Source: Microtetraspora fusca (lineage in GTDB: Bacteria > Actinomycetota > Actinomycetes > Streptosporangiales > Streptosporangiaceae). From it: 50,051 nt of DNA. Every line of letters starts with the position of its first letter. Position 1 is the stretch's first letter. The DNA is taken from the NCBI RefSeq assembly GCF_001570365.1, contig NZ_BBYK01000075.1, positions 35,704 to 85,754 of the forward strand, read 5' to 3'. The notes beneath the pieces are model-generated. The model was not told the DNA's origin. It ran no database searches and saw only the letters and a program-made list of their open reading frames with translations. The translations under genes were made by a program, and so were the position numbers. Below, piece after piece: positions 37,911 to 49,606 of the stretch.

Positions 37911-37927
37911 GTCCTCAATTTGAGGAC
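37911..37927. promoter_or_regulatory. IclR operator candidate
   Basis: GTCCTCAA - T - TTGAGGAC is a perfect 8-bp inverted repeat with a 1-base centre, 15 bases upstream of the IclR start and just before its Shine-Dalgarno AGGAAG. A smaller palindrome, TCCCA-AA-TGGGA, lies at 37893-37904. The position suits autorepression. Confidence 0.65.
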
Positions 37928-37941
37928 AGGAAGAGTGGTCC

Positions 37942-38673
37942 ATGGATGGCATTTCGCGCACGCCGCCCTTGAGCTCCAGCCAGAAGGCCCTGGCGCTTCT
38001 GGAGGCCATCGCGGAGATGCCGACCGCCGTGGGTGTCAGTGAACTCGCCCGGCAGGTCGGCTCGGGGCGGGGCACGGTGCACAAGCAGCTGGTCACGCTT
38101 GTGAGCTCCGGCTGGGTCGAACAGTGCGAGGACGGACGTTACCGGCTCAGCATGCTGGCGACCCGGGTGGGAAACGCGGCGCTGGAGCAGGCGAGCCTCG
38201 GCGAGCGCGTACGTCCGGCCATGCAGCGCCTGGCCGACGAGTGTCGCGAAGCGGTGTCCCTGTCCGTCCTCGAACGCGGTACGGCTCTGATCGTGCAGCG
38301 CGTCGAATCGGAGCAGGTCCTGAACGCCGACCTCAAGGTCGGGACCAGGATGCCGCTGGCGACCAGCGCCTCCGGGCTCGTGTTGACGGCCTTCGCCCTG
38401 CCGGAAGAGCGTGCCCGGCTGGTGGGCCAGGGCGTGGCGCTCGCGTCCGACGAACGCCTTGACGAGGTACGGCGCAGGGAACTGGCCCAGTCGGTGGACG
38501 AGTACATGGTGGGCATCGCGGCGGTCGCGATGCCCATCCAGAACTCGCAGAACCGGGTCGTGGCCGCGCTGAGCGTCGCGGCGCCCAGCATCCGAATGGA
38601 CCTGGCGGGCAGCGAGGCGGCGCTTCGCACCGCGCAACAGATCATCAATCAGCTCGTGTCAGGAGTGAAGTGA
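37942..38673 (+). CDS. IclR-family transcriptional regulator
   Basis: A 243-residue regulator with an N-terminal winged HTH (SSSQKALALLEAIAEMPTAV, VSELARQVGSGRGTVHKQLV) and a C-terminal IclR ligand domain (RPAMQRLADECREAVSLSVL, IVQRVESEQVLN, PLATSASGLVLTAF, VVAALSVAAPSIRM). The ATG at 37942 has AGGAAG upstream. Its TGA overlaps the GTG of the DUF1185 gene. As first gene of the catabolic cluster with a palindrome just before it, it is the likely pathway-specific regulator, responding to the imported compound or a degradation intermediate. Confidence 0.92.
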   Translation: MDGISRTPPLSSSQKALALLEAIAEMPTAVGVSELARQVGSGRGTVHKQLVTLVSSGWVEQCEDGRYRLSMLATRVGNAALEQASLGERVRPAMQRLADECREAVSLSVLERGTALIVQRVESEQVLNADLKVGTRMPLATSASGLVLTAFALPEERARLVGQGVALASDERLDEVRRRELAQSVDEYMVGIAAVAMPIQNSQNRVVAALSVAAPSIRMDLAGSEAALRTAQQIINQLVSGVK

Positions 38674-39242
38674 GCATCGTCATTCGCAAGTGGGTGAGCA
38701 CCGTAGAAGATGTGCTCGTCGAGGCCGGGCGCCCTCTGGAGCGCCCCGCGCGGCGGGTCGTCGTCGGGGCGGTGATCTCCAACCCCTACAGCGGCCGCTA
38801 CTCCGAAGAGCTCACCGAGCTGATCGACGCGGGCGAGACGCTCGGTGCGGAGCTCGTGCGGCGGTGCAAGGAGTTGCTCGGCGATGAGATCGAGGCCTAC
38901 GGCAAGGCCGGCATCGTGGGGGTCAACGGCGAACTGGAGCACGCCTCGGCGGTGCTGCACCCCAAGTTCGGCCCGCCCGTACGCGGTGGTGCCGAAGGCG
39001 TGTCCATCCTTCCCTCGGCGAAGAAGCGCGGCGGACCCGGCACCAAGATCGATGTTCCGGTGCACCACAAGCGCGCGATGCTCATCCGCTCCCACTTCGA
39101 CGCGGTGGAGTTCGGCGTGACCGACGCACCGCTGCCGGACGAGCTCGTCATCGCCCTGGCGGTGACCAACGCGGGGCGCCCCCACGCCCGCGTCGGCGGT
39201 CTCCGGGAGGAAGACGCGATCGGCGAGGACGGTCTGCGCTAG
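38670..39242 (+). CDS. Amino acid synthesis family (DUF1185/PF06684) protein
   Basis: A 190-residue protein starting GTG at 38670 inside the IclR stop. Typical family segments: IRKWVSTVEDVLVEAGRPLE, AAVISNPYSGRY-type sequence (here GAVISNPYSGRYSEELTELI), AYGKAGIVGVNGELEHASAV, KKRGGPGTKIDVPVHHK and IRSHFDAVEFGVTDAPLPDE. Despite the family name, its biochemical role is not established. Members are found beside amidohydrolases, SDRs and ABC importers in catabolic loci, as here. It is probably an enzyme acting on an amide or ring compound. This is inference. Confidence 0.85.
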   Translation: MSIVIRKWVSTVEDVLVEAGRPLERPARRVVVGAVISNPYSGRYSEELTELIDAGETLGAELVRRCKELLGDEIEAYGKAGIVGVNGELEHASAVLHPKFGPPVRGGAEGVSILPSAKKRGGPGTKIDVPVHHKRAMLIRSHFDAVEFGVTDAPLPDELVIALAVTNAGRPHARVGGLREEDAIGEDGLR

Positions 39243-39698
39243 CGCTCTGATCGGGGAAGACCGCCGGGCCGACCACTGCGGTGGCCTCCGCGCTTCTGCC
39301 CCCCGCCAACCCGGCCCCGGTTCCCGGCATCGCGCCGGACCGTATCCGGCGAATGAAGCGTCGCTGCGCGCGGCCCACCCCAGTGCCTCGCCGCAGTTGC
39401 CGCCCCACACACGAAGACACCTCGCCGGCTCGAAGCCTCCGCGGCCTCGGGAACGGAGGCCCGCCCCGGCTTTCTCGACCGCCTGGTGATGCGTCCGTTC
39501 TGGCGATGCGACCGTTCTGGACCGCACTCGCCACGGGCGCATCCAACGGGCACCCCGGCTGCGGACTCCAGCGAACAGCCGCGCCCATCACCGCACCGCC
39601 AAATCACGCCCCAAAAGGACAGCCACGCCCCGTCGCCCCCCAACAGCCGCGACCCCCCTCAACACCCCCCAACTCAGGACCTGAAAGAGGCACGACAC
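39243..39698. promoter_or_regulatory. 456-bp leader/promoter region of the importer operon
   Basis: This contains no supportable gene; the frame running in from 39486 is Pro/Arg-rich. It holds a 19-base palindrome CGCCGGA-CCGTA-TCCGGCG (39333-39351), a GGCCTC/GAGGCC hairpin near 39449-39467, a 17-bp direct repeat (39489-39522) and TCAGG-A-CCTGA (39674-39684) just before the Shine-Dalgarno. It is the likely second promoter of the cluster. Confidence 0.5.
39489..39522. repeat. 17-bp tandem direct repeat upstream of the BMP gene
   Basis: ATGCGTCCGTTCTGGCG (39489-39505) is followed immediately by ATGCGACCGTTCTGGAC (39506-39522), 14 of 17 identical. Direct repeats of CCGTTCTGG spaced 17 bp could be regulator sites for the importer operon. 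Confidence 0.5.
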
Positions 39699-40751
39699 AT
39701 GCACAACAAGCGACTGCTGCGCGTCGCGGCCGCCGGCGTCGGGCTCACGCTCACGCTCGCGCTCGCGACCGCGGCCTGTGGATCGGAAGGGACACCCGCC
39801 GCGTCGGGCGGCAAGCCGGCGGCGAAGAACATGGTGGCGCCGCTGTCCGGGCAGCTCGGCGACAAGAGCTTCATGGACTCGGCGAACCGCGGCTTCAAGC
39901 GTGCGGAGACGGACCTCGGCGTCACCGTCAAGGTGATCGAGGCGTCGACGAACGACGCCCCCGCGTGGGAGCGCAACCTCCGTGAGGCCGCCAAGCGGGA
40001 CGACGTCGGTCTCGTGCTCACCGGCGGCACCGTGGTGGCGAGCACGCTCAAGAAGGTGTCGCCGGCCTTCCCGAACCAGAAGTTCCTCATCTTCGATGCG
40101 CCGAGCCAGGGCCCGAACTCCACGGGCATCACCTACGCCCAGAACGAGGGCGCGTTCCTCGCCGGCGCGCTCGCGGCGTACATCACCAAGAGCCCGGACA
40201 AGTTTCCCAAGGCCAAGGGGTCGATGAAGGTGGGCCTCTGCGCCGGCATGGACATCCCGGTCATCCGGGACTTCATCGTCGGGTTCCAGCAGGGGGTCAA
40301 GACCGTGGACCCCAACGTCACGGTCGACGTGCGGTTCACCGGTGACTTCGTCAGCCCGCAGAAGGGCTTCGACACCGCGAGCGCGATGTTCAAGGACGGC
40401 GCCGACGTCGTCTACCAGGTCGCGGGACCGACGGGCATCGGGATCCTCAAGGCCGCCAAGGAGGCCGGACGCTACGGCATCGGCACCGACTCGAACCAGA
40501 ACGACCTGCACCCCGGTTTCATCGCCGCCAGCGTGATCAAGTCCGTGGACAACACCGTTTATCAGGCGATCAAGGACTTCACCGACGGGAAGCTGACGAT
40601 GGGGGAGACCCGCGTGGGTGACCTGTCCAACGACGGCGTCAGCATCGAGTTCGACGACGCGATCGTCCCGGCCGACGTCCAGAAGCAGATCGGCGACCTC
40701 AAGCAGCAGGTGACCGACGGAAAGATCACCGTCGACACGGCGCTCAAGTAA
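39699..40751 (+). CDS. BMP/PnrA-type substrate-binding lipoprotein
   Basis: A 350-residue lipoprotein; the ATG at 39699 follows AGAGG. Lipobox LATAACGS with Cys near residue 27. The mature part matches the basic membrane protein/PnrA family: MVAPLSGQLGDKSFMDSANRG, a GITYAQNEGAFLAGALAAYI segment, KVGLCAGMDIPVIRDFIVGF and ADVVYQVAGPTGIG. Characterised members bind purine and other nucleosides for the ATP-driven transporter encoded by the next three genes. The conserved Asp in the GDKSFMD loop and the aromatic/acidic pocket residues are present. The exact nucleoside-like ligand is unknown. Confidence 0.92.
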   Translation: MHNKRLLRVAAAGVGLTLTLALATAACGSEGTPAASGGKPAAKNMVAPLSGQLGDKSFMDSANRGFKRAETDLGVTVKVIEASTNDAPAWERNLREAAKRDDVGLVLTGGTVVASTLKKVSPAFPNQKFLIFDAPSQGPNSTGITYAQNEGAFLAGALAAYITKSPDKFPKAKGSMKVGLCAGMDIPVIRDFIVGFQQGVKTVDPNVTVDVRFTGDFVSPQKGFDTASAMFKDGADVVYQVAGPTGIGILKAAKEAGRYGIGTDSNQNDLHPGFIAASVIKSVDNTVYQAIKDFTDGKLTMGETRVGDLSNDGVSIEFDDAIVPADVQKQIGDLKQQVTDGKITVDTALK

Positions 40752-40784
40752 CCGCCGAGCCCCGGCTATCACCGAGCGAGCGAT

Positions 40785-42305
40785 ATGAAACAGACAACCC
40801 CCCTGCTGGAGATGCGCGGCATCACCAAGCGGTTCGGGCCCCTGACCGCGGTCGACGGCGTCGACCTCGACGTGCGTGCCGGCGAGGTCCATGCTCTCCT
40901 CGGCGAGAACGGGGCCGGCAAGTCCACCCTGATGAACTGCCTGTTCGGACTGCAGCAGCCCGACGCGGGAGAGATCCGCATCGAGGGCACCCCGGTGCGC
41001 GTCGACGGACCGCGGGCGGCGCTGCGCCACGGCATCGGCATGGTGCACCAGCATTTCAAGCTGGTGCCCTCGCTCACCGTGGCGGAGAACGTGTTCCTCG
41101 GCCACGAGCGCATGCGCGCCTTCGGTTTCCTCGACAGGGCCGCGCAACGCGCTCGTGTCGCCGAGCTGTCGGAGAGGTACGGCATCGGGGTCGATCCGGA
41201 CGCGAAGGTCAAGGACCTGTCGGTCGGGGCGCAGCAGCGCGTGGAGATCATCCGAGCCCTCTCGGAGGACGTCCGGCTGCTCGTCCTGGACGAACCCACC
41301 GCGGTGCTCACCCCGCAGGAGACCGAGCGGCTCTTCGAGACCCTGCGTGGCTTCGTGGCGGCCGGCCTCGGGGTCGTCCTGATCAGCCACCACCTGTCGG
41401 AGGTCTGCCGGATCGCGGACCGGGTGACCGTGCTGCGGCACGGCCGGCGGGTCGCCGCCGAGCGCGTCGCCGACGTCGACGAGCACCGGCTTGCCGAGCT
41501 GATCGTCGGCAAGGACCTCCCGCGCCAGACCAAGGAGTGGGGGCGGGGCACGCCGGGCGCGCCGAAGCTGGAGGTCCACGGGCTACACGTGCGGGACAGC
41601 CGCGGCGTCGAGCTGATCAAGGGTTTGGATCTCACCGTGCACGCGGGGGAGATCGTCGGGATCGCCGGGGTGGCGGGCAACGGGCAGACGGAGCTGGTGG
41701 AGGCCATCGCCGGCATCCGTCGGCCCGGTGCGGGCTCGATCCGGGTCGCCGGCGTCGAGGTGGCGGGCAGGCGCCCGCGCGCGGCCAGGGTCGCCGGCCT
41801 CGCTCACGTGCCCGAGGACCGGAACACGCGCGGCCTGAGCGTCTGGTCGCCGGTGACCGACAACATCGTCGTCGGCCATCTCGACGACCGGAGCCTGGGC
41901 AGGCCGCTGCTCAAGCCGGCGAGGGTGCGCCGGCTCGCCGAGCGACTGATCGAGCGCTTCGACGTCCGCGTCGCCCACCCCGGGGTGTTCGCCAAGCGGC
42001 TCTCTGGCGGCAACGCGCAGAAGATGGTGCTGGCGCGCGAACTGTCCAGGGAACCCGAGGTCATCGTGTGCTGCGAGCCGGTGCGCGGTCTGGACATCGC
42101 CGCCACCGAGTTCGTGCACCGCCAGCTCGTCGAACACCGCGATCGCGGAGCCGCCGTGCTGCTCGTCTCCACCGAGCTGCCGGAGATCCTGTCGCTCGCC
42201 GACCGCATCCTCGTGATGTTCACGGGTGAGGTCGTCGGGGAGTTCGCCGGTGACCGCCCGTCCGAGTTCGAAGTGGGCCGGCTGATGTTGGGGATGAGCG
42301 CATGA
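40785..42305 (+). CDS. ABC transporter ATPase (two NBDs, nucleoside/sugar type)
   Basis: A 506-residue ATPase with two fused nucleotide-binding domains. The first has Walker A GENGAGKST (about residue 42), signature LSVGAQQRVEI and Walker B LLVLDEPTAVLT. The second has a degenerate Walker A (GVAGNGQTEL), LSGGNAQKMVLA and VIVCCEPVRGLD, with E-to-P-type substitutions typical of this subfamily. It resembles YufO/NupA, the ATPase of BMP-type importers. It starts 33 bases after the binding protein and overlaps the first permease gene by four bases. Confidence 0.93.
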   Translation: MKQTTPLLEMRGITKRFGPLTAVDGVDLDVRAGEVHALLGENGAGKSTLMNCLFGLQQPDAGEIRIEGTPVRVDGPRAALRHGIGMVHQHFKLVPSLTVAENVFLGHERMRAFGFLDRAAQRARVAELSERYGIGVDPDAKVKDLSVGAQQRVEIIRALSEDVRLLVLDEPTAVLTPQETERLFETLRGFVAAGLGVVLISHHLSEVCRIADRVTVLRHGRRVAAERVADVDEHRLAELIVGKDLPRQTKEWGRGTPGAPKLEVHGLHVRDSRGVELIKGLDLTVHAGEIVGIAGVAGNGQTELVEAIAGIRRPGAGSIRVAGVEVAGRRPRAARVAGLAHVPEDRNTRGLSVWSPVTDNIVVGHLDDRSLGRPLLKPARVRRLAERLIERFDVRVAHPGVFAKRLSGGNAQKMVLARELSREPEVIVCCEPVRGLDIAATEFVHRQLVEHRDRGAAVLLVSTELPEILSLADRILVMFTGEVVGEFAGDRPSEFEVGRLMLGMSA

Positions 42306-43366
42306 CCGACACCACCGCCCCCGCGGCGTCACCCGCGCGCGCCCGGCTCAGCGCGCTGCGGCCGTCCCCCGGCCTCCGCCAGTCGCTCATCGCCATCGCG
42401 CTCGGCCTGCTGGCCTCCTTGATCATCATCGCCGTGATCGCGGACGAGCCGATGGCCGCCTTCCGGGCATTCGCCCTCGGGTCGTTCGAGGACGTCTACA
42501 GCTTCGGCACCATGCTGTCGATCGCCACCATCCTGGCGATCACCGGTCTGTCCTCGGCCATCGGGTTCAAGGCCGGCGCCTTCAACATCGGCGGCGAGGG
42601 ACAGTTGTACGCGGGCGGGCTCACTGCCGCCGTCGTGGCGCTGTACATGCCGGGGCCCGGACCGGTCGTCATGGTCACCGCCCTCGTGGCCGCCGCTGTG
42701 GTCGGCGCGGCCTGGATCGCGATCCCCGCCCTGCTGCGGGTCTACTTCGGGGTGACGGAGATCGTCACGACGCTGATGTCCACGTACATCGCGATCGACG
42801 TCACGACGTACCTGGTCAAGGCGTACTTCAAGGATCCGCAGTCCGGCGCTCTGGAAACGCCGCCGATCCCGCAGGAGACCTGGCTGCCCGGCATTCTCAG
42901 CCCGTCCAACGCGAACTACGGCCTGTTCCTGGCGGTCCTCCTGGCGGGGGCGATGGCGCTGTTCCTGGCGCGCACCCGGCTCGGTCTGCGACTCCGGCTC
43001 GTGGGCCTGCAGCCGTCGTTCGCCGAGAACGTGGGCATCGCGTCCGACCGCACGCTGCTCGGCGGCATGCTCACCAGCGGCGCGCTGGCCGGGCTGGCCG
43101 GAGGCGTGGCCATCCTCGGGCTGACGCACAACTTCATCGACAGCTTCTCGCCGCAGTTCGGCTTCCTGGGCATCACCGTGGCCCTCATCGGGCGGCTGTC
43201 GCCGTTCGGGGTTCTCGCCGCCGCGGTGCTGTACGGGTCGCTGATGACCGGCGCGACCTCGATGCAGTCGGTGTCCGACGTGCCGTTCGCCCTCGTCTTC
43301 ATCCTCCAGGGACTCCTCATTTTGCTGATCACCAGTCAGGGCATCCGCCGAAGGGGTGCGATGTGA
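42302..43366 (+). CDS. ABC transporter permease (YufP/NupB type)
   Basis: A 354-residue inner-membrane permease with eight to ten hydrophobic segments (LIAIALGLLASLIIIAVIAD at the start). The BPD_transp_2 core contains SAIGFKAGAFNIGGEGQLYAG and FGVTEIVTTLMSTYIAI, a hallmark of this family. The EAA-like loop region SFAENVGIASDRTLLGGML and GALAGLAGGVAIL follow. It forms a heterodimer with the permease encoded next (GTGA overlap at 43363). Confidence 0.92.
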   Translation: MTDTTAPAASPARARLSALRPSPGLRQSLIAIALGLLASLIIIAVIADEPMAAFRAFALGSFEDVYSFGTMLSIATILAITGLSSAIGFKAGAFNIGGEGQLYAGGLTAAVVALYMPGPGPVVMVTALVAAAVVGAAWIAIPALLRVYFGVTEIVTTLMSTYIAIDVTTYLVKAYFKDPQSGALETPPIPQETWLPGILSPSNANYGLFLAVLLAGAMALFLARTRLGLRLRLVGLQPSFAENVGIASDRTLLGGMLTSGALAGLAGGVAILGLTHNFIDSFSPQFGFLGITVALIGRLSPFGVLAAAVLYGSLMTGATSMQSVSDVPFALVFILQGLLILLITSQGIRRRGAM

Positions 43367-44310
43367 GCGGGCTCGCCAACTTCCTCGCACTCGCCATCAC
43401 GTCGACGATCCCCGTCCTGGCCACCGCCATGGGCGGTGCGATCGCGGAGCGCGCCCGCGCCACCAACATCGCCATGGACGGCTCGATGCTCATCGCGGCG
43501 CTCGTGGCGCTGGGAGTGACCGACAAGACCCAGAACGTGTGGGTCGGCCTCGTGGCGGGCGTCCTCGCCGGCGGTCTGTTCAGCGCTCTGCTGGCGATCG
43601 CCGCCTTCGTCCTGCGCTGCGACATCATCATCGCCGGGATCGCGCTGAACCTGCTGGCCAGCGGCTTGGCCCTGCTGGTCACCGTCGTGGTCTTCCACCA
43701 GCCCGGGACCTATGCGCCCGCCGGGCTGCCGACGCTGCCGCACGTCCCGCTCGGACCGCTCGCGGAGATCCCCGTCCTGGGACCCGCCCTCGACAGGCAG
43801 AGCGTCCTCGTCTACGTCGCCCTGGCCCTCGTCGCGGTGGCCTGGGTCGTCACGCACAAGACCCGCTTCGGGCTGTGGGTGCAGGCCGTCGGCGAGAGCG
43901 ACGAGGCGGCCCTGGCCGCCGGCATCAGCCCGGTCCGGGTGCGCACCACCGCGATCATCGCCAGCGGCCTCACCGCCGGCGTGGGCGGCGCCTTCCTGAC
44001 CATCAGCGTCGTGGGCACGTTCAACACCCAGACGACCAACGGCGCGGGGTTCATCGCGCTCGCCGCGATCATCTTCGGCCGCGCCACGATCCTGGGCTCG
44101 GCGGCCGCGGCGTTCCTCTTCGGCCTGGCGGTCGCCGCGTCGCTGCAGATGCAGGGCGGCGGCGGCCTGCTCGACCCACAGCTCCTGCATGCCCTCCCGT
44201 ACGTGACGACCATCGTCGTACTGGCCGTATACGGAATCCGCCGCCGCCGCGTCGAGCGGTTCGCGGCGTCGGACACCGCGTACGTGCCCGCCATCATCCC
44301 TCGCGACTAG
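43363..44310 (+). CDS. ABC transporter permease (YufQ/NupC type)
   Basis: A 315-residue permease, shorter than its partner as usual, starting GTG at 43363 in the previous stop. Typical segments: TIPVLATAMGGAIAERARAT, NIAMDGSMLIAALVALG (the family's N-x-G-x-E-G equivalent), DIIIAGIALNLLASGLALLV, and GESDEAALAAGISPVRVRTT followed by the conserved GLTAGVGGAFLT. It completes the BMP importer. The nucleoside hydrolase gene begins 14 bases later. Confidence 0.92.
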   Translation: MSGLANFLALAITSTIPVLATAMGGAIAERARATNIAMDGSMLIAALVALGVTDKTQNVWVGLVAGVLAGGLFSALLAIAAFVLRCDIIIAGIALNLLASGLALLVTVVVFHQPGTYAPAGLPTLPHVPLGPLAEIPVLGPALDRQSVLVYVALALVAVAWVVTHKTRFGLWVQAVGESDEAALAAGISPVRVRTTAIIASGLTAGVGGAFLTISVVGTFNTQTTNGAGFIALAAIIFGRATILGSAAAAFLFGLAVAASLQMQGGGGLLDPQLLHALPYVTTIVVLAVYGIRRRRVERFAASDTAYVPAIIPRD

Positions 44311-44323
44311 AAGGACCATCCCC

Positions 44324-45322
44324 ATGCCCAAGAAAGCCACTGTGCTGGTCGACTGCGACACCGGCGTCGACGACGCCATGGCGCTGCTGTACCTGTTGCT
44401 CGACCCGGATGTCGAGGTCTGCGGGCTGACCACGGTGTTCGGCAACATCTCCGCCGAGACGGCGGCCATCAACTGTCTCAGGGTGCTCGAACTCGTCGGG
44501 ATGGAGCACATCCCCGTCGCCAAGGGCGCCGACGTCATGATCCGTGGCGACATCCCCGAGCTGGCACCGCACGTGCACGGCCAGGACGGCCTGGGGAACT
44601 CCAACCTGCCGATGCCCAAGGGCAGCTGGCAGGACGAGACCGCCGCCGAGATGATCGCGCGGATCGCGCGGGAGCGCCCCGGCGAGGTGCACCTGATCGC
44701 CACCGGCCCGCTGACCAACGTCGCGATCGCCTTGGCCATGGAGCCCGAGCTGCCCAAGCTGATCAAGCATGTGACGATCATGGGCGGCGCCGCGGACGCG
44801 CCCGGCAACCAGACGCCCGCGGCGGAGGCGAACATCCTCCACGACCCGGAGGCGGCCCAGGCCGTGCTCAGCGCCGCGTGGAACACCACCCTCGTGCCGC
44901 TCGACGTGACCATGGAAGAGCTGATCACCGAGGAGCACCGCGCCCACTTCGAACGGGTCGCCACGCCGGTGACCTCGTTCGTCGCCCGGATCACCGACCA
45001 CTACTTCGACTTCTTCCACGCCGAGTCGTTCGACGTCCGGTGCTCGCCGTGCCACGACGCGCTGGCGGCGGCCATCGCCGTCGGGGACGTCGAGCCGATC
45101 GAGGCGCCGGTCGTCAACGTCGAGGTGGAGTGCGGTTACGGGCCCGGACGCGGCGCCACGATCTGCGACACGCGCGGGCGCTACCGCGGCCACCCTCCCC
45201 AGGAAGGCGCGCGCTGCCGGGTCGTCCTCAAGACCGACGGCACGTTCGCCGACGTGCTCTCCCGGCGCCTGGAGACCTGGCCGCCGCCGCACGGCCGGCT
45301 CGCGAACGGCGGCGCCCGATGA
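44324..45322 (+). CDS. Inosine-uridine-preferring type nucleoside hydrolase
   Basis: A 332-residue cytoplasmic enzyme that cleaves the N-glycosidic bond of ribonucleosides to give base and ribose. The Ca2+/ribose-binding DxDxGxDD box is VLVDCDTGVDDAMALL (residues about 7-22). HLIATGPLTNVAIAL and VTIMGGAADAPGN form the active-site shell, and CHDALAAAI supplies the late metal-ligand Asp after the catalytic His region. It directly follows the BMP importer genes and so most likely acts on the imported compound. Specificity among purine, pyrimidine, nicotinate riboside or modified nucleosides cannot be read from sequence. Its stop overlaps the SDR start. Confidence 0.92.
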   Translation: MPKKATVLVDCDTGVDDAMALLYLLLDPDVEVCGLTTVFGNISAETAAINCLRVLELVGMEHIPVAKGADVMIRGDIPELAPHVHGQDGLGNSNLPMPKGSWQDETAAEMIARIARERPGEVHLIATGPLTNVAIALAMEPELPKLIKHVTIMGGAADAPGNQTPAAEANILHDPEAAQAVLSAAWNTTLVPLDVTMEELITEEHRAHFERVATPVTSFVARITDHYFDFFHAESFDVRCSPCHDALAAAIAVGDVEPIEAPVVNVEVECGYGPGRGATICDTRGRYRGHPPQEGARCRVVLKTDGTFADVLSRRLETWPPPHGRLANGGAR

Positions 45323-46044
45323 GCACCACGGAACTGCAGGGCCTGCGGCTGGTCGTCGTCGGCGCGGCGTCCGGCATCGGCGAGGCCACCGCGCGGCTCT
45401 GCGAACTGCGCGGCGCGCGGGTCGTCCGCGTCGACCGCGTCGCCTCGCCGCACGTCGACGTTGTCTGCGACATCACGGACGGCGAATCGTGCCACACCGC
45501 CGTCGAACGCGCGGCCGAGCTCATGGCCGGGATCGACGGTGTCGCCGTCACCGCCGGCATGGGCGAGTACGCGACGATCGAGGAGACGACGCCGGAGCTC
45601 TGGGACCTGACGCTCGGCGTCAACCTTCTCGGTCCCAGCCGGATCGCCCGGGCGGCGCTGCCCCACCTGCGCCGATCGCGGAACGCCGCGTTCGTGACGG
45701 TGGCCTCCGCCGCCGGTATCCGCTCCTACCCCAAGTTCACCGCGTACTCCTCGTCCAAGGCCGCCCTGGTGCACTGGACGAAGGTCGCCGCCCGTGAGCT
45801 CGCCCTCGAGGGCGTGCGCGTCAACTGCGTGAGTCCGGGACCCATCGACACGCCCATGCTGCGCTCGAACCAGCCGGACGGGCACACCGTCGGGTCATGG
45901 CTCGTCGAGGTCGCCAAGCACACGGCCATGGAGCGGGTCGGCACGGCGGACGAGGTGGCGGAGGCGATCTCCTTCCTGCTCTCGCCCCGCTCCAGCTACG
46001 TCACCGGCGTCGTCCTGCCGGTGGACGGAGGGGAGGTCGCGTGA
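45319..46044 (+). CDS. Short-chain dehydrogenase/reductase
   Basis: A 241-residue NAD(P)-dependent oxidoreductase. The cofactor motif is VVVGAASGIGEATARLCELR (TGxxxGIG variant). The acidic residue after beta2 (VVRVDRVAS) suggests NAD preference. Catalytic Ser lies in VASAAG, with YSSSKAAL providing Tyr and Lys. The sequence ends with the classical SPRSSYVTGVVLPVDGG. A shorter than usual middle segment replaces the common NNAG with VTAGMGEY. It starts ATG at 45319 inside the nucleoside hydrolase stop. It probably oxidises a sugar-derived or ring alcohol in the pathway. Confidence 0.92.
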   Translation: MSTTELQGLRLVVVGAASGIGEATARLCELRGARVVRVDRVASPHVDVVCDITDGESCHTAVERAAELMAGIDGVAVTAGMGEYATIEETTPELWDLTLGVNLLGPSRIARAALPHLRRSRNAAFVTVASAAGIRSYPKFTAYSSSKAALVHWTKVAARELALEGVRVNCVSPGPIDTPMLRSNQPDGHTVGSWLVEVAKHTAMERVGTADEVAEAISFLLSPRSSYVTGVVLPVDGGEVA

Positions 46045-46100
46045 GCGTCCGCACCCGCGCGCACGAACGTCACCACAACGCGAAGGACTGTTTCCAATGA
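46041..46100 (+). CDS. 19-codon coupling ORF between SDR and VOC-hydrolase genes
   Basis: GTG at 46041 overlaps the SDR stop (GTGA) and reads MSVRTRAHERHHNAKDCFQ to a TGA that overlaps the ATG of the next gene (ATGA at 46097). Both junctions copy the 4-base overlaps used elsewhere in the operon. It may be a real micro-ORF or simply the route by which ribosomes reach the next start. The next gene also has its own GAAGGA site within it. Confidence 0.4.
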   Translation: MSVRTRAHERHHNAKDCFQ

Positions 46101-47224
46101 GGCTGGGACCGCTTGACGAGCGCCGATTCCAGGGGCTGCACCACGTCTGCCTGACCGTCGCGGACCTGGACCGCTCGATCGCCTTCTACGGCGCATTCGG
46201 CTTCCGTGAGATCATGCGGTGGAGTGAGACCCCCGAGGTGTGCGCGGACGGTCTGGGCATCCCCGGCGCGGCGATCGAGCTCGCCCACCTGCGCGGCCAT
46301 GGGATCGTGCTGGAGCTGATGGTCTACTCCGCGCCGCCGGCGGCGAAGGTCGCGCCGTCCCCGGCCGACGTCGGCACCGCGCATCTCGCCCTCGTCGTCG
46401 ACGACATCGACGCCGTGCACGCCGCGGTCACGGCCGCGGGCGCCACGGTGGTCTCCGACCCGGTGCGGGACCCGTCGGCGGATTCGTTCCAGATCGTCGA
46501 CCCGGACGGCATCCGCGTCGAGTTCATCGCCCCCGACCCCGGCGGCGCGCTCCCGCCCACGGCCGTCACGCCGGAAGGGGTCCGCGACGAGGAACTGGAC
46601 TCCTTCTCCGCCCACCGCGTCGAGTCCGACGGCACGCTCCCTCCGCTGGACGGGGCGTCGACCGCCCTGCTCGTGGTGGACATGCTCAACGACTTCTGCT
46701 CCGACGGCGGTGCGATGGTGCTCCCCGGGGCGGACCGGCTCCACGACCCGATCAACCGGCTCGTGGACGCGACCCGTCAGGCCGGCGGGCATGTCGTCTG
46801 GGTGTGCGACAGGCACGACTCGCTCGACGACGAGGAGTTCCGCAAGAGGGCACCGCACTGCCTCGCCGGAACCTGGGGCGCCGAGGTCGTCGACGGGCTG
46901 TCCAAGGCGGACGACGACCACCTGCTCGTGAAGCGGAGGTTCAGCGCGTTCTTCCAGACCGACCTGGACGCGTGGCTGCGCCGGAAGGGCATCACGCGGC
47001 TCATCGTCTGCGGTGTCGTCACGAACATCTGCGTCCGGTCGACGGCGCACGACGGCTTCTTCCTCGGCTACGACGTCCTCGTTCCCCGGGACGCCTGCGC
47101 CGCCACGGGCTCGCGCGAACAGGCGTCCACGCTGTACGACATCGAGACGCACTTCGGCACGGTCGCCGGGACGGACGAGCTGTGCCTCGCCCTCGAGGCG
47201 GCGGCGAAGGGTTCGGTGGCGTGA
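46097..47224 (+). CDS. VOC (glyoxalase-fold) :: isochorismatase-like cysteine hydrolase fusion
   Basis: A 375-residue two-domain protein. Residues about 8-155 form a vicinal-oxygen-chelate module of two beta-alpha-beta-beta-beta units (GLHHVCLTVADLDRSIAFYG with a metal-type His; GTAHLALVVDDIDAV; IVDPDGIRVEFIAPD with the late Glu). Residues about 185-370 form an isochorismatase-fold amidohydrolase with catalytic Asp in LLVVDMLNDFC, Lys in LLVKRRFSAF and Cys in CGVVTNICVRSTAHDGF. The latter family includes nicotinamidase and maleamate and N-carbamoyl amide hydrolases. The fusion suggests consecutive reactions on one intermediate: isomerisation, epimerisation or ring opening, then amide hydrolysis. 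GAAGGA precedes the ATG. Confidence 0.9.
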   Translation: MRLGPLDERRFQGLHHVCLTVADLDRSIAFYGAFGFREIMRWSETPEVCADGLGIPGAAIELAHLRGHGIVLELMVYSAPPAAKVAPSPADVGTAHLALVVDDIDAVHAAVTAAGATVVSDPVRDPSADSFQIVDPDGIRVEFIAPDPGGALPPTAVTPEGVRDEELDSFSAHRVESDGTLPPLDGASTALLVVDMLNDFCSDGGAMVLPGADRLHDPINRLVDATRQAGGHVVWVCDRHDSLDDEEFRKRAPHCLAGTWGAEVVDGLSKADDDHLLVKRRFSAFFQTDLDAWLRRKGITRLIVCGVVTNICVRSTAHDGFFLGYDVLVPRDACAATGSREQASTLYDIETHFGTVAGTDELCLALEAAAKGSVA

Positions 47225-48384
47225 GCGACGACCTGCTCATCACCGGGATCGGCGCCATCGTCTCGGGCGACCTCACGGCACCGATCCTCGCCGGCGACAG
47301 CGTCCTGTGCCGTGACGGGCTCATCGCGGCCGTCGGCCGGCTCGACGACGTGCACCCGGGCGGCACGCCCCGCACCATAGACGCCAACGGCACGACGCTG
47401 GTCCCGGGGCTCATCGACGCGCACACGCACCCCGTGCTCGGCGACTACACGCCGCGCCAGAACACGTCGGGGTGGATCGAGTCCTACGTGCATGGTGGTG
47501 TCACCACGCTCGTGTCGTGCGGCGAGCCGCACACCCCCGGCCGGCCGAGGGACGCCGCGGGGGTGAAGGCGCTGGCGATCCTCGCGCACAAGAGCTTCGC
47601 CACGGTGCGCCCGCTCGGTGCGAAGGTCCATGCCGGGGCCCTGCTTCTCGAACCGGGACTGACCGAGGAGGACTTCGCCGAGGCCGCGGCGGAGGGGTGC
47701 TGGCTGCTGGGGGAGATCGGCATCTCCAGCGTGAGCGACCCGGCCGCCGCCGTGCCGCTGGTCGAGGCCGCCAAGCGGCATGGCTTCCTCGTACCGGTGC
47801 ATGTCGGGGGTGCCTCCGTCCCGGGCTCGACCGTCATCGGAGCCGACATGGTCGTCGCCGTGCAGCCCGACGTCGCCGTGCACTGCAACGGCGGTCCGAC
47901 CGCTCCCAGCCACGACGACGTGGTCCGCATCATCGAGGAGACCGACGCGGCCATCGAGATCGTCCAGGCGGGCAACACCCGCGCGCTGCGCGACGTGGTG
48001 CGCGAGCTCATGCGGCGGGATCTCGTCGACCGGCTGCAGATCGGCAGCGACACCCCGTCGGGCACCGGCGTCATCCCGGTCGGCATCCTGCGCACCATGG
48101 CCTACGCCTCCGCGCTGGCCGGTCTGGAGCCGGAGCTCGCCGTCTGCGCGGCCACCGGTTCGACGGCGCGCCGCTACCGACGGAACACCGGAATCATCGA
48201 GCCCGGCCGCGAGGCGGACCTCGTGTTCCTCTCCACCCCGCGCGGCTCCGCGGCTCCGACCGCGTTGGAGGCGCTGCGGGCGGGGGACATCCCGGCGGTC
48301 TGCGGCGTGATCATCGACGGTGTCGTACGGGTCACCGCCAGCCGAGTGACTCCGCCGCCCGCGCACGCCCCGTCCTTCGGCTGA
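47221..48384 (+). CDS. Amidohydrolase, enamidase-like
   Basis: A 387-residue metal-dependent hydrolase starting GTG in the previous stop. The N-terminal urease-like strand (LLITGIGAIVSGDLTAPILA) leads to the metal box PGLIDAHTHPVLGDYTP (HxH near residue 67). GEIGISSVSD supplies the bridging acid, VPVHVGGASVPGSTV and VHCNGGPTAPS supply His ligands and IGSDTPSGTG supplies the catalytic Asp (about residue 277). The pattern resembles enamidase of anaerobic nicotinate degradation, which opens 6-oxo-tetrahydronicotinate. In this operon it may hydrolyse a cyclic amide or enamide. The family assignment is by recalled pattern, so the specific reaction is uncertain. Confidence 0.85.
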   Translation: MSDDLLITGIGAIVSGDLTAPILAGDSVLCRDGLIAAVGRLDDVHPGGTPRTIDANGTTLVPGLIDAHTHPVLGDYTPRQNTSGWIESYVHGGVTTLVSCGEPHTPGRPRDAAGVKALAILAHKSFATVRPLGAKVHAGALLLEPGLTEEDFAEAAAEGCWLLGEIGISSVSDPAAAVPLVEAAKRHGFLVPVHVGGASVPGSTVIGADMVVAVQPDVAVHCNGGPTAPSHDDVVRIIEETDAAIEIVQAGNTRALRDVVRELMRRDLVDRLQIGSDTPSGTGVIPVGILRTMAYASALAGLEPELAVCAATGSTARRYRRNTGIIEPGREADLVFLSTPRGSAAPTALEALRAGDIPAVCGVIIDGVVRVTASRVTPPPAHAPSFG

Positions 48385-48391
48385 ATCCGGG

Positions 48392-49606
48392 ATGACGGCC
48401 GTCACCGAGCCGGCCGGCGGCACGCGGCGCGATCGGTTCACGATCTCGCTGTATCTGCTGCTGGCCGGCGTCGCCATTCTGCACAGTGGGTTGGGCGCGC
48501 TGCTGCCGTACATGCGGCACGATCTGCGGATGAGTCATGTTGTCGAGAGCGTGCACCTGTCGGCCATGGCCGTGGGAGGTCTCGTCGCGTCGGTCCTGGC
48601 CGAGCCCGTACGCCGCAAGCTGGGCCGAGGCAGGCTGTTGCTCTGCGCCGGGCTCCTCGTGGCCGCGGGCGGGGTGGGCTTCGCGGTCGCCACGACGCCG
48701 ACGATCAGTGTGGCGAGCGCGTTCCTCGTCGGTCTCGGTGGGAGCGTCTGCCTCATCTCCGGGCAGGCGGCGCTCGTCGGACTGCAGGGGCCGCGGTCCG
48801 CCCGCATGATCATCGAACTGAACCTCGCCTACAGCCTCGGCGCCGCTCTGGGAACCGCCGCACTGCCACTCGTCGCGGGCTCCGGGCTTGGTTGGCGGGG
48901 GTTCGGCGGCCTCCACGCGGTGCTTCTGTGTCTGGTCGTCGTGCCGCTGATGCTGGGCACCGCGCGGTCGGCGGACCCACCGGCCGTCCCGCCGCGGCGC
49001 GCCGCGTCAGGGGTACGGCGGGGCCGGCCCGCCTTCGGCGTCGTCGCCGCGGCCCTCAGCGTCGCGGTCGAGTGGTCCTTCGCCCTGTGGGTGGCCACGT
49101 ACCTGCACGACGTCGTGGGACTCGACCGAGCCCAGGCGAGCTGGGGCACGTCGCTGATGCTGACCGGCGTGATCGCCGGTCGCGCCGCGGGCAGCCGGAT
49201 GGTCGCCCGCGTCGCCCCGCAGCACGTCCTGACCGGATCGCTCCTGACGTGCGGTCTCGCCTTCGGCCTGCTGAACGCGTCGCACTCGACGACCGCGGTG
49301 GTCGGCGCGGCGGCGGTCGCCGGCCTCGGAATCGCCAACCTCTATCCGGCGGCGGTGGCGATGGTCATCGGCGGAGACCCGTCGCGGGCCGACACGGCGA
49401 TGGCCCGGTGCTCGCTGGCCACGTCGACGTCACTCATGATCTCGCCGGTCCTGCTCGGCTGGCTCGCCGACTCCGTGGGGCTGGCCCGGGCGTTCACGGT
49501 CGTGCCCGTGTTCGTGGTGGGCGCGCTCGCCGCGATCCGGCTCGCCGGCGGCCCGCGCCCGGCCGCTCGGTCCTCAATGCCGTCAGGCCGGGCCGGCGTG
49601 GGCTGA
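48392..49606 (+). CDS. MFS transporter
   Basis: A 404-residue transporter with twelve hydrophobic segments, seven bases after the amidohydrolase stop and last in the operon. Segments include ISLYLLLAGVAILHSGLGAL, the loop LAEPVRRKLGRGRLLL (GxLaDrxGrr-like region) and VEWSFALWVATYLHDVVGLD. The FucP/YfkF-like architecture fits uptake or export of small organic acids or sugars. It could export an end product or import a second substrate of the pathway. A 16-bp terminator hairpin follows. Confidence 0.88.
   Translation: MTAVTEPAGGTRRDRFTISLYLLLAGVAILHSGLGALLPYMRHDLRMSHVVESVHLSAMAVGGLVASVLAEPVRRKLGRGRLLLCAGLLVAAGGVGFAVATTPTISVASAFLVGLGGSVCLISGQAALVGLQGPRSARMIIELNLAYSLGAALGTAALPLVAGSGLGWRGFGGLHAVLLCLVVVPLMLGTARSADPPAVPPRRAASGVRRGRPAFGVVAAALSVAVEWSFALWVATYLHDVVGLDRAQASWGTSLMLTGVIAGRAAGSRMVARVAPQHVLTGSLLTCGLAFGLLNASHSTTAVVGAAAVAGLGIANLYPAAVAMVIGGDPSRADTAMARCSLATSTSLMISPVLLGWLADSVGLARAFTVVPVFVVGALAAIRLAGGPRPAARSSMPSGRAGVG

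Follow-up and report, generated by a model that had tools for sequence, protein, structure and literature searches.

Enamidase carries out the hydrolytic ring opening and deamination of 1,4,5,6-tetrahydro-6-oxonicotinate to (S)-2-formylglutarate, according to PMC9304392. The reductive nicotinate pathway of Eubacterium barkeri and Azorhizobium caulinodans is among the described systems closest to the locus treated here, the enamidase family being common to both. Parts of the locus are also met in the Rut uracil pathway, in which RutB is likewise a cysteine hydrolase of the isochorismatase type (CH), and in the PnrA/BMP importers for nucleosides. The locus itself is a cluster of eleven intact genes at positions 37942-49606, on the + strand, of a 50,051-nucleotide stretch of the Microtetraspora fusca genome (contig NZ_BBYK01000075.1), the whole of which is called the window. 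From 5' to 3', the genes encode an IclR regulator, a DUF1185 protein, a BMP-type binding protein, an ATPase, permease 1, permease 2, a nucleoside hydrolase (NH), a short-chain dehydrogenase/reductase (SDR), a VOC domain fused to a CH, an enamidase and an MFS transporter.

This is a real, recurring catabolic set, in which the enamidase is known and the combination around it is a new variant. Unlike in the reductive nicotinate pathway, the genome carries no 6-hydroxynicotinate reductase (HNR) and the cluster no molybdenum (Mo) hydroxylase, and a BMP importer, an NH, an SDR and a CH are added. Our preferred reading, to which we give a probability of roughly 0.4, is that the cluster would serve the catabolism of a nucleoside whose nicotinamide-type base already has the oxidation level of the reduced lactam or lies a single oxidation short of it. 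The earlier note on this DNA, which had named the same eleven same-direction genes and their families, was right in each of them, the MFS by way of PF07690.

The enamidase and the genes found beside it

By sequence, the amidohydrolase (47221-48384, + strand) is an enamidase, with its activity predicted. Among solved structures its best match is 2vun, an enamidase that we take to be the E. barkeri enzyme, at 412.7 bits over residues 6-383, with the runner-up at 27 bits; the call "enamidase-like" in the earlier note was thus too cautious. The metal-ligand pattern of HNR-linked enamidases (HxH, E, H, H, D) is present as H68, H70, E165, H194, H221 and D277, which, going by the amidohydrolase superfamily, are presumably the metal ligands. 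In a tree of 64 rows, the smallest well-supported set that contains the window (99/95) has seven rows, made up of the window, three HNR-linked rows, L157 from another actinobacterium and two plasmid rows. All 23 rows labelled for HNR fall in a broader 32-row group, whose support of 91/82 is under the usual mark. HNR lies within 10 kb in 21 of the 23; L156 has it just beyond the locus, L065 has it truncated by the end of the contig, and these two were counted as "other" in the locus counts and the residue comparison. The partial enamidase of L088 was left out of both tree and residue comparison.

Position 165 is E in the window, in 21/21 HNR-linked rows and in 4/4 rows that lack HNR and have NH or CH; the 38 other rows have K in 32 cases and E in 6. 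The window enamidase keeps 85 of the 93 positions invariant among HNR-linked rows, as compared with 92 in Kaistia, 84 in L157, 81 and 79 in the two Chloroflexota and 60 to 93 in the others. The rows with K for E at 165 form a large enamidase-like branch, comprising L045-L049 and most other HNR-less rows, which may have a different substrate.

The neighbourhoods of these enamidases were compared in 64 loci, including the window, 40 enamidase relatives from a scan of species genomes (L052-L091), seven class loci, 13 phylum regions and 3 of 25 plasmid records that carry an enamidase. The scan gave at least 80 loci, of which the 40 weak ones (L092-L131) were left out, and L200 and L201 stand outside the counts. 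A neighbour was counted at bit scores of 80 for NH, 150 for CH, 60 for SDR and 200 for HNR, within 6 kb of the enamidase for SDR and within 10 kb for all other genes; since the loci span 4-21 kb, gene absences may reflect how far a contig extends. Twenty-two loci contain HNR, and among them DUF1185 is found in 21, the Mo-hydroxylase large subunit in 10, and NH, CH, SDR and BMP in none. Five loci have NH and/or CH and lack HNR: the window, Kaistia soli (L054), two Chloroflexota (L055 and L071) and L157. In these, DUF1185 is present in all five, CH in four, SDR in four, NH in three and BMP in two, and no Mo-hydroxylase large subunit was found within the 10-kb limit. The other 37 loci show DUF1185 in 25, Mo-hydroxylase in 6, SDR in 2, and neither NH, CH nor BMP. 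For the SDR (4/5 vs 0/22) the Fisher probability is about 3e-4, a figure that is a guide only, because the limits were self-chosen and the loci are related (L049 hardly differs from L083, and L055 and L071 are sisters). Repeated recruitment of NH and CH to the enamidase is suggested by the tree, and not shown, because the label needs four changes and shuffled labels often need as few (4.7 on average, with 121 of 500 at four or under).

The absence of HNR extends beyond the loci. In a genome-wide search, the best match in the window genome covers 39 residues at 24 bits, and the Kaistia, both Chloroflexota and G923 genomes yielded only matches of 21-27 bits; the same search found HNR in the G904 and G765 genomes. 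The HNR query has 45% identity over 462 residues to a RefSeq-named 6-hydroxynicotinate reductase of Sulfitobacter, whose cluster also holds an enamidase, a UPF0280 gene and two DUF1185-type genes.

The same families occur together in three phyla, and no single other set has all the parts. Kaistia L054 shares with the window the BMP importer, NH, CH, enamidase and DUF1185, and the lack of HNR; it differs in having two divergent NH genes, MarR in place of IclR, a ketopantoate-reductase-type gene, two DUF1185 genes on the opposite strand, no SDR within 6 kb of the enamidase and no VOC fusion (the genome is that of K. soli DSM 19436). Plasmids of Sinorhizobium medicae (L167) and Rhizobium rhododendri (L168) carry a BMP importer, a CH 52.7-55.9% identical to that of the window, DUF1185 and an SDR nearby, and differ in having two NH genes, a MarR-type gene and adjoining hydantoinase genes (both A and B for Rhizobium, with A the one tested for Sinorhizobium). 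No enamidase was found in these two loci, where tblastn gave only short, chance-level matches, nor on the plasmids at an E-value of 1e-40, the chromosomes being outside that search. In L157, an NH with 50% identity to that of the window is followed by an SDR (also 50%), a PfkB-type kinase and an importer of the SBP_bac_1/BPD_transp_1 type, together with an IclR (39%), the enamidase and two DUF1185 genes. The search for conserved gene order that the earlier note had proposed thus finds related sets in Kaistia, Sinorhizobium and Rhizobium, two Chloroflexota and another actinobacterium, and its ordered hypothesis (uptake, N-glycosidic cleavage, a redox step, ring opening and amide hydrolysis) fits these recurring sets, even though none of them has every part. 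The lack of co-conservation that it had named as refuting was not observed.

A side observation concerns the Chloroflexota locus L055 and the Rhizobium plasmid locus L168. Around the CH-DUF1185 set they share a sugar-type binding protein (47% identity), a xylose-isomerase-like TIM-barrel (52%), an epimerase-like gene (37%) and an SDR (48%), and both have a Gfo/Idh gene; the Pfam families there are SBP_bac_1, AP_endonuc_2 and GFO_IDH_MocA. These shared genes, and the lack of an NH in L055 and L071, would fit a substrate that is an unusual lactam N-glycoside and no true nucleoside, from which the base is freed in Chloroflexota and Rhizobium with the sugar-type ABC importer, the TIM-barrel and Gfo/Idh. 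We consider this quite improbable for the window, whose cluster has no such sugar genes and whose BMP importer and NH fit nucleosides.

The cysteine hydrolase and the choice of substrate

The VOC-CH fusion (46097-47224, + strand; both domains by Pfam) gives the second line of evidence on the base. In the tree, its CH domain shares a clade, supported at 97/91, with those of Kaistia, Sinorhizobium, Rhizobium, the two Chloroflexota, L068 and L180, that of L068 lying in an HNR cluster. The next relatives by score, L181-L199, reach 130-153 bits (20 were found, one without a locus), and other matches at order level stay at or below 113. A nicotinate phosphoribosyltransferase lies within the locus of 13 of these 19 relatives, and the one in L181 passes its NCBIfam cut-off (495 vs 243 bits). 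The motif D-x-H...H, which we take to be the metal site of nicotinamidase, is kept in the window, Kaistia, L068, the rhizobia and the L181-L199 relatives. The window CH also has the Asp, Lys and Cys residues of the PncA type. In L180 (G654), the CH relative is clustered with genes named by eye, among them deaminase-type ones.

No match covering both domains of the fusion was seen among the matches listed for 344 other genomes of the order, nor among those listed in the plasmid and wider searches at their E-value limits, and the fusion as a conserved unit was accordingly rejected. For the interpretation in the earlier note, the result for the order is a point against. The predicted structure of its VOC domain has pLDDT below 50 for residues 1-96, probably because the alignment has no other row covering VOC, and was not used. 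The unmatched fusion could be taken as a sign that unrelated genes were assembled here by chance; this is very improbable, and is contradicted by the recurrence of the same gene families together in three phyla.

Several points weigh against our preferred reading. Twenty-four enamidase positions set the HNR-linked rows apart, being conserved in them and uncommon in other rows; the window enamidase keeps only 13 of these and differs at 249, 250, 280, 282 and 285, around D277, so that its substrate may not be quite tetrahydro-6-oxonicotinate. The five HNR-less loci are a small sample, two of them sisters; L157 has no close CH, and Kaistia no SDR near its enamidase. Weaker isochorismatase-type matches (34-75 bits) occur in the HNR loci L056 and L068 and also in L053, L085, L157, L158, L159, L164, L165 and L166, and the count of CH in 0/22 HNR loci thus depends on the 150-bit limit; a 163-bit CH relative in the HNR cluster of L068 lies about 10.3 kb from the enamidase, outside the 10-kb limit. 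In the CH clade, L180 has neither an enamidase nor an NH match nearby and has E for D in the motif, which is lost in the two Chloroflexota, and the long-branched L008 and L024 (rows of the window's own family) join the clade weakly (84/80), before the phosphoribosyltransferase-linked group. Among named models for the window CH, RutB scores highest (110.5 bits), followed by PRK11440, biuret hydrolase and nicotinamidase (66.1), and each score is far short of its cut-off, which is 377.95 bits for RutB in NCBIfam and 174 for the nicotinamidase PRK11609. This ranking does not decide the matter, because the phosphoribosyltransferase-linked CHs of L181 and L186 also score best to biuret hydrolase and RutB, and they miss PRK11609 at 67.8 and 59.1 bits. 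The SDR, too, could act on 2-formylglutarate or on the sugar instead.

Some of these points bear on a pyrimidine or dihydropyrimidine nucleoside, such as the dihydrouridine of tRNA, for which the enamidase homologue would stand in for dihydropyrimidinase and the CH would cut the ureide as RutB does. The ranking of RutB and the 11 of 24 enamidase positions at which the window differs would suit it, as would an NH nearest to RihA-type pyrimidine hydrolases among named models (under cut-off) and the hydantoinase genes adjoining the Sinorhizobium and Rhizobium sets. Unlike RutB, the window CH is VOC-fused. The enamidase, which keeps E165 and the 85 invariant positions and groups with HNR-linked rows, the presence of DUF1185 in 21/22 HNR loci, and the nicotinate phosphoribosyltransferase beside the CH relatives all speak for a nicotinate-type base, and we regard a pyrimidine substrate as unlikely, though worth keeping in mind. 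Of the substrates that the earlier note had entertained, the enamidase tree and the CH relatives thus favour the nicotinate-type base over pyrimidine, not decisively given the 13/24 positions and RutB as the top model.

Ordinary nicotinamide or nicotinate riboside is a further candidate, with hydroxylation and ring reduction left to enzymes encoded elsewhere and unrelated to HNR. Outside the cluster, the genome has seven matches to Mo-hydroxylase, spread over some five sites (30-40% identity), which count for this candidate and against the preferred reading, and the phosphoribosyltransferase beside the CH relatives would agree with it. The lack of HNR in the genome argues against it; so does the absence of the Mo-hydroxylase large subunit from all five HNR-less sets, an argument of little weight, given that one is seen in no more than 10 of the 22 HNR loci. 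On balance this substrate seems to us improbable, if only slightly more so than a pyrimidine nucleoside. The earlier note had reported no nicotinate hydroxylase in the cluster, and the Mo-hydroxylase-like matches lie elsewhere in the genome.

Layout of the cluster, its importer and its regulator

Five junctions are direct 4-base overlaps (IclR/DUF1185, ATPase/permease 1, permease 1/permease 2, NH/SDR and VOC-CH/enamidase), and a 19-codon open reading frame (46041-46100, + strand), with GGAGG 5' of its GTG, bridges the SDR and the fusion gene and overlaps by 4 bases at both ends, which brings the total to seven. The six overlaps of the earlier note are to be corrected in this sense; the passage through the small frame that it described is real. 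The remaining four junctions are gaps of 7, 13, 33 and 456 bp, the 7-base gap being that between enamidase and MFS. The claim of the earlier note that the products are made together is weakened by the 456 bp between DUF1185 and BMP, because of which a single transcript is not established: IclR-DUF1185 and BMP-to-MFS may be two separate transcription units. Two tandem 17-nt direct repeats lie inside this gap (39483-39516) and are a possible regulator site for the second unit. The contig stops at the end of the window, 445 bp past the MFS gene, and the cluster may therefore continue.

The IclR-family regulator (37942-38673, + strand; PF01614/PF09339) is 39% identical to the IclR beside the L157 enamidase, and 40% and 35% identical to two Nocardiaceae plasmid IclRs. 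Just 5' of it is a perfect 17-bp palindrome, GTCCTCAATTTGAGGAC (37911-37927), a candidate operator to which IclR might bind. With up to 2 mismatches allowed, no second site occurs in the genome; the reversed control pattern is likewise found once, and the rarity alone is therefore not evidence. On Rhodococcus and Prescottella plasmids (L171, L172) a trio of IclR, enamidase and MFS is found, with no match to the window DUF1185, importer or NH within 10 kb. The window MFS transporter (48392-49606, + strand; PF07690 at 92 bits, cut-off 33.4) has no match in two Nocardiaceae plasmid loci, and the idea of it as a partner was rejected.

The importer consists of a PF02608 binding protein, a double ATPase and two permeases, as in the PnrA/BMP importers, and a nucleoside is its putative ligand. 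The binding protein gene (39699-40751, + strand) most likely starts at the ATG at 39699; its PF02608 score of 196 bits was obtained on a version one codon longer (39696-40751). The N-terminus resembles a signal peptide, and the strict lipobox pattern is unmatched. The protein scores far under cut-off with the only NCBIfam model it matched, that of a putative B6 importer (61.2 vs 400 bits). Three further BMP-type binding proteins are encoded in the genome (L001, L003, L004). The double ABC ATPase (40785-42305, + strand; Pfam) is 49% identical to that of Kaistia L054 and 50% to that of Rhizobium L168, permease 1 (42302-43366, + strand; PF02653) 37-38% to those of both loci, and permease 2 (43363-44310, + strand; PF02653) 32% to that of L168.

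The NH (44324-45322, + strand; IU_nuc_hydro, PF01156 at 291 bits) has an intact DxDxxxDD motif and is 31-34% identical to the Kaistia and Rhizobium genes. An NH with 48% identity to it is also encoded on a Klebsiella michiganensis plasmid (L169), beside genes annotated as ribokinase and adenosine deaminase. The SDR (45319-46044, + strand) has the GxxxGxG and YxxxK motifs of the classical type and is 28-32% identical to the SDRs in L055, L071 and L168. In classical SDRs, YxxxK typically goes with the chemistry of alcohols and carbonyls and not with enoyl reduction, and here it fits hemiaminal oxidation, but also the reduction of 2-formylglutarate.

The DUF1185 protein (38670-39242, + strand; AA_synth, PF06684 at 226 bits) belongs to a frequent neighbour family of the enamidase. 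Rid proteins share the Bacillus chorismate mutase-like fold. A RidA/RutC-like enamine deaminase is not claimed for DUF1185, since no Rid protein is among the best 50 of 531 Foldseek matches; with the predicted model (pLDDT 88.8), three matches reached E of 0.001 or less, all from its own family. A structure of a DUF1185 protein has been solved and has the Bacillus chorismate mutase-like fold, and as to its role the paper that describes it (PMC2954203) goes no further than amino-acid metabolism in general.

A proposed route and what it would mean

The route that we infer, in its substrate, its step order and the roles of the SDR, VOC, DUF1185 and MFS proteins alike, would begin with the uptake of the nucleoside through the BMP-ABC importer, after which the NH would cleave the N-glycosidic bond to give the sugar and the base. 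The SDR would then oxidise a ring-carbon alcohol (a hemiaminal) to the 6-oxo lactam, the CH domain would take off the carboxamide, and the enamidase would open 1,4,5,6-tetrahydro-6-oxonicotinate to 2-formylglutarate and ammonia. DUF1185 would act adjacent to the enamidase step, and IclR would control the set. Such a route would join the reductive nicotinate pathway at the enamidase, with neither nicotinate hydroxylase nor HNR; the latter would not be needed, as the substrate would arrive partly reduced.

One source of such a base would be damaged cofactors. A bacterial route dedicated to their scavenging could take in ribosides of hydrated dihydronicotinamide, derived from NADHX and NADPHX, and split off the base; the SDR could oxidise its C6 hydroxyl straight to the 6-oxo lactam, which would be deamidated and then opened by the enamidase, and the VOC domain might convert the R and S hydrates into one another. 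Once hydrated, the ring has the degree of reduction that HNR would otherwise confer, which would explain the SDR replacing HNR. This more specific proposal is drawn from chemistry and is doubtful. Several abstracts treat NADHX as a damage product handled by repair enzymes. In the open-licence literature we found no publication on NADHX degradation with a nucleoside hydrolase, none linking nicotinamide riboside to a BMP family ABC transporter and none on a nucleoside hydrolase operon for nicotinamide riboside catabolism; the titles and abstract openings of the enamidase papers listed there hold no description of such a set.

With an enamidase-based route of this kind, the two early enzymes of reductive nicotinate breakdown would be bypassed, and such a route would recur in three phyla, with importers that differ. 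DUF1185 gains a firm genomic context beside the enamidase. If the substrate is indeed hydrated NAD(P)H debris, catabolism would offer a way out for a damage product that several abstracts discuss as a matter of repair.

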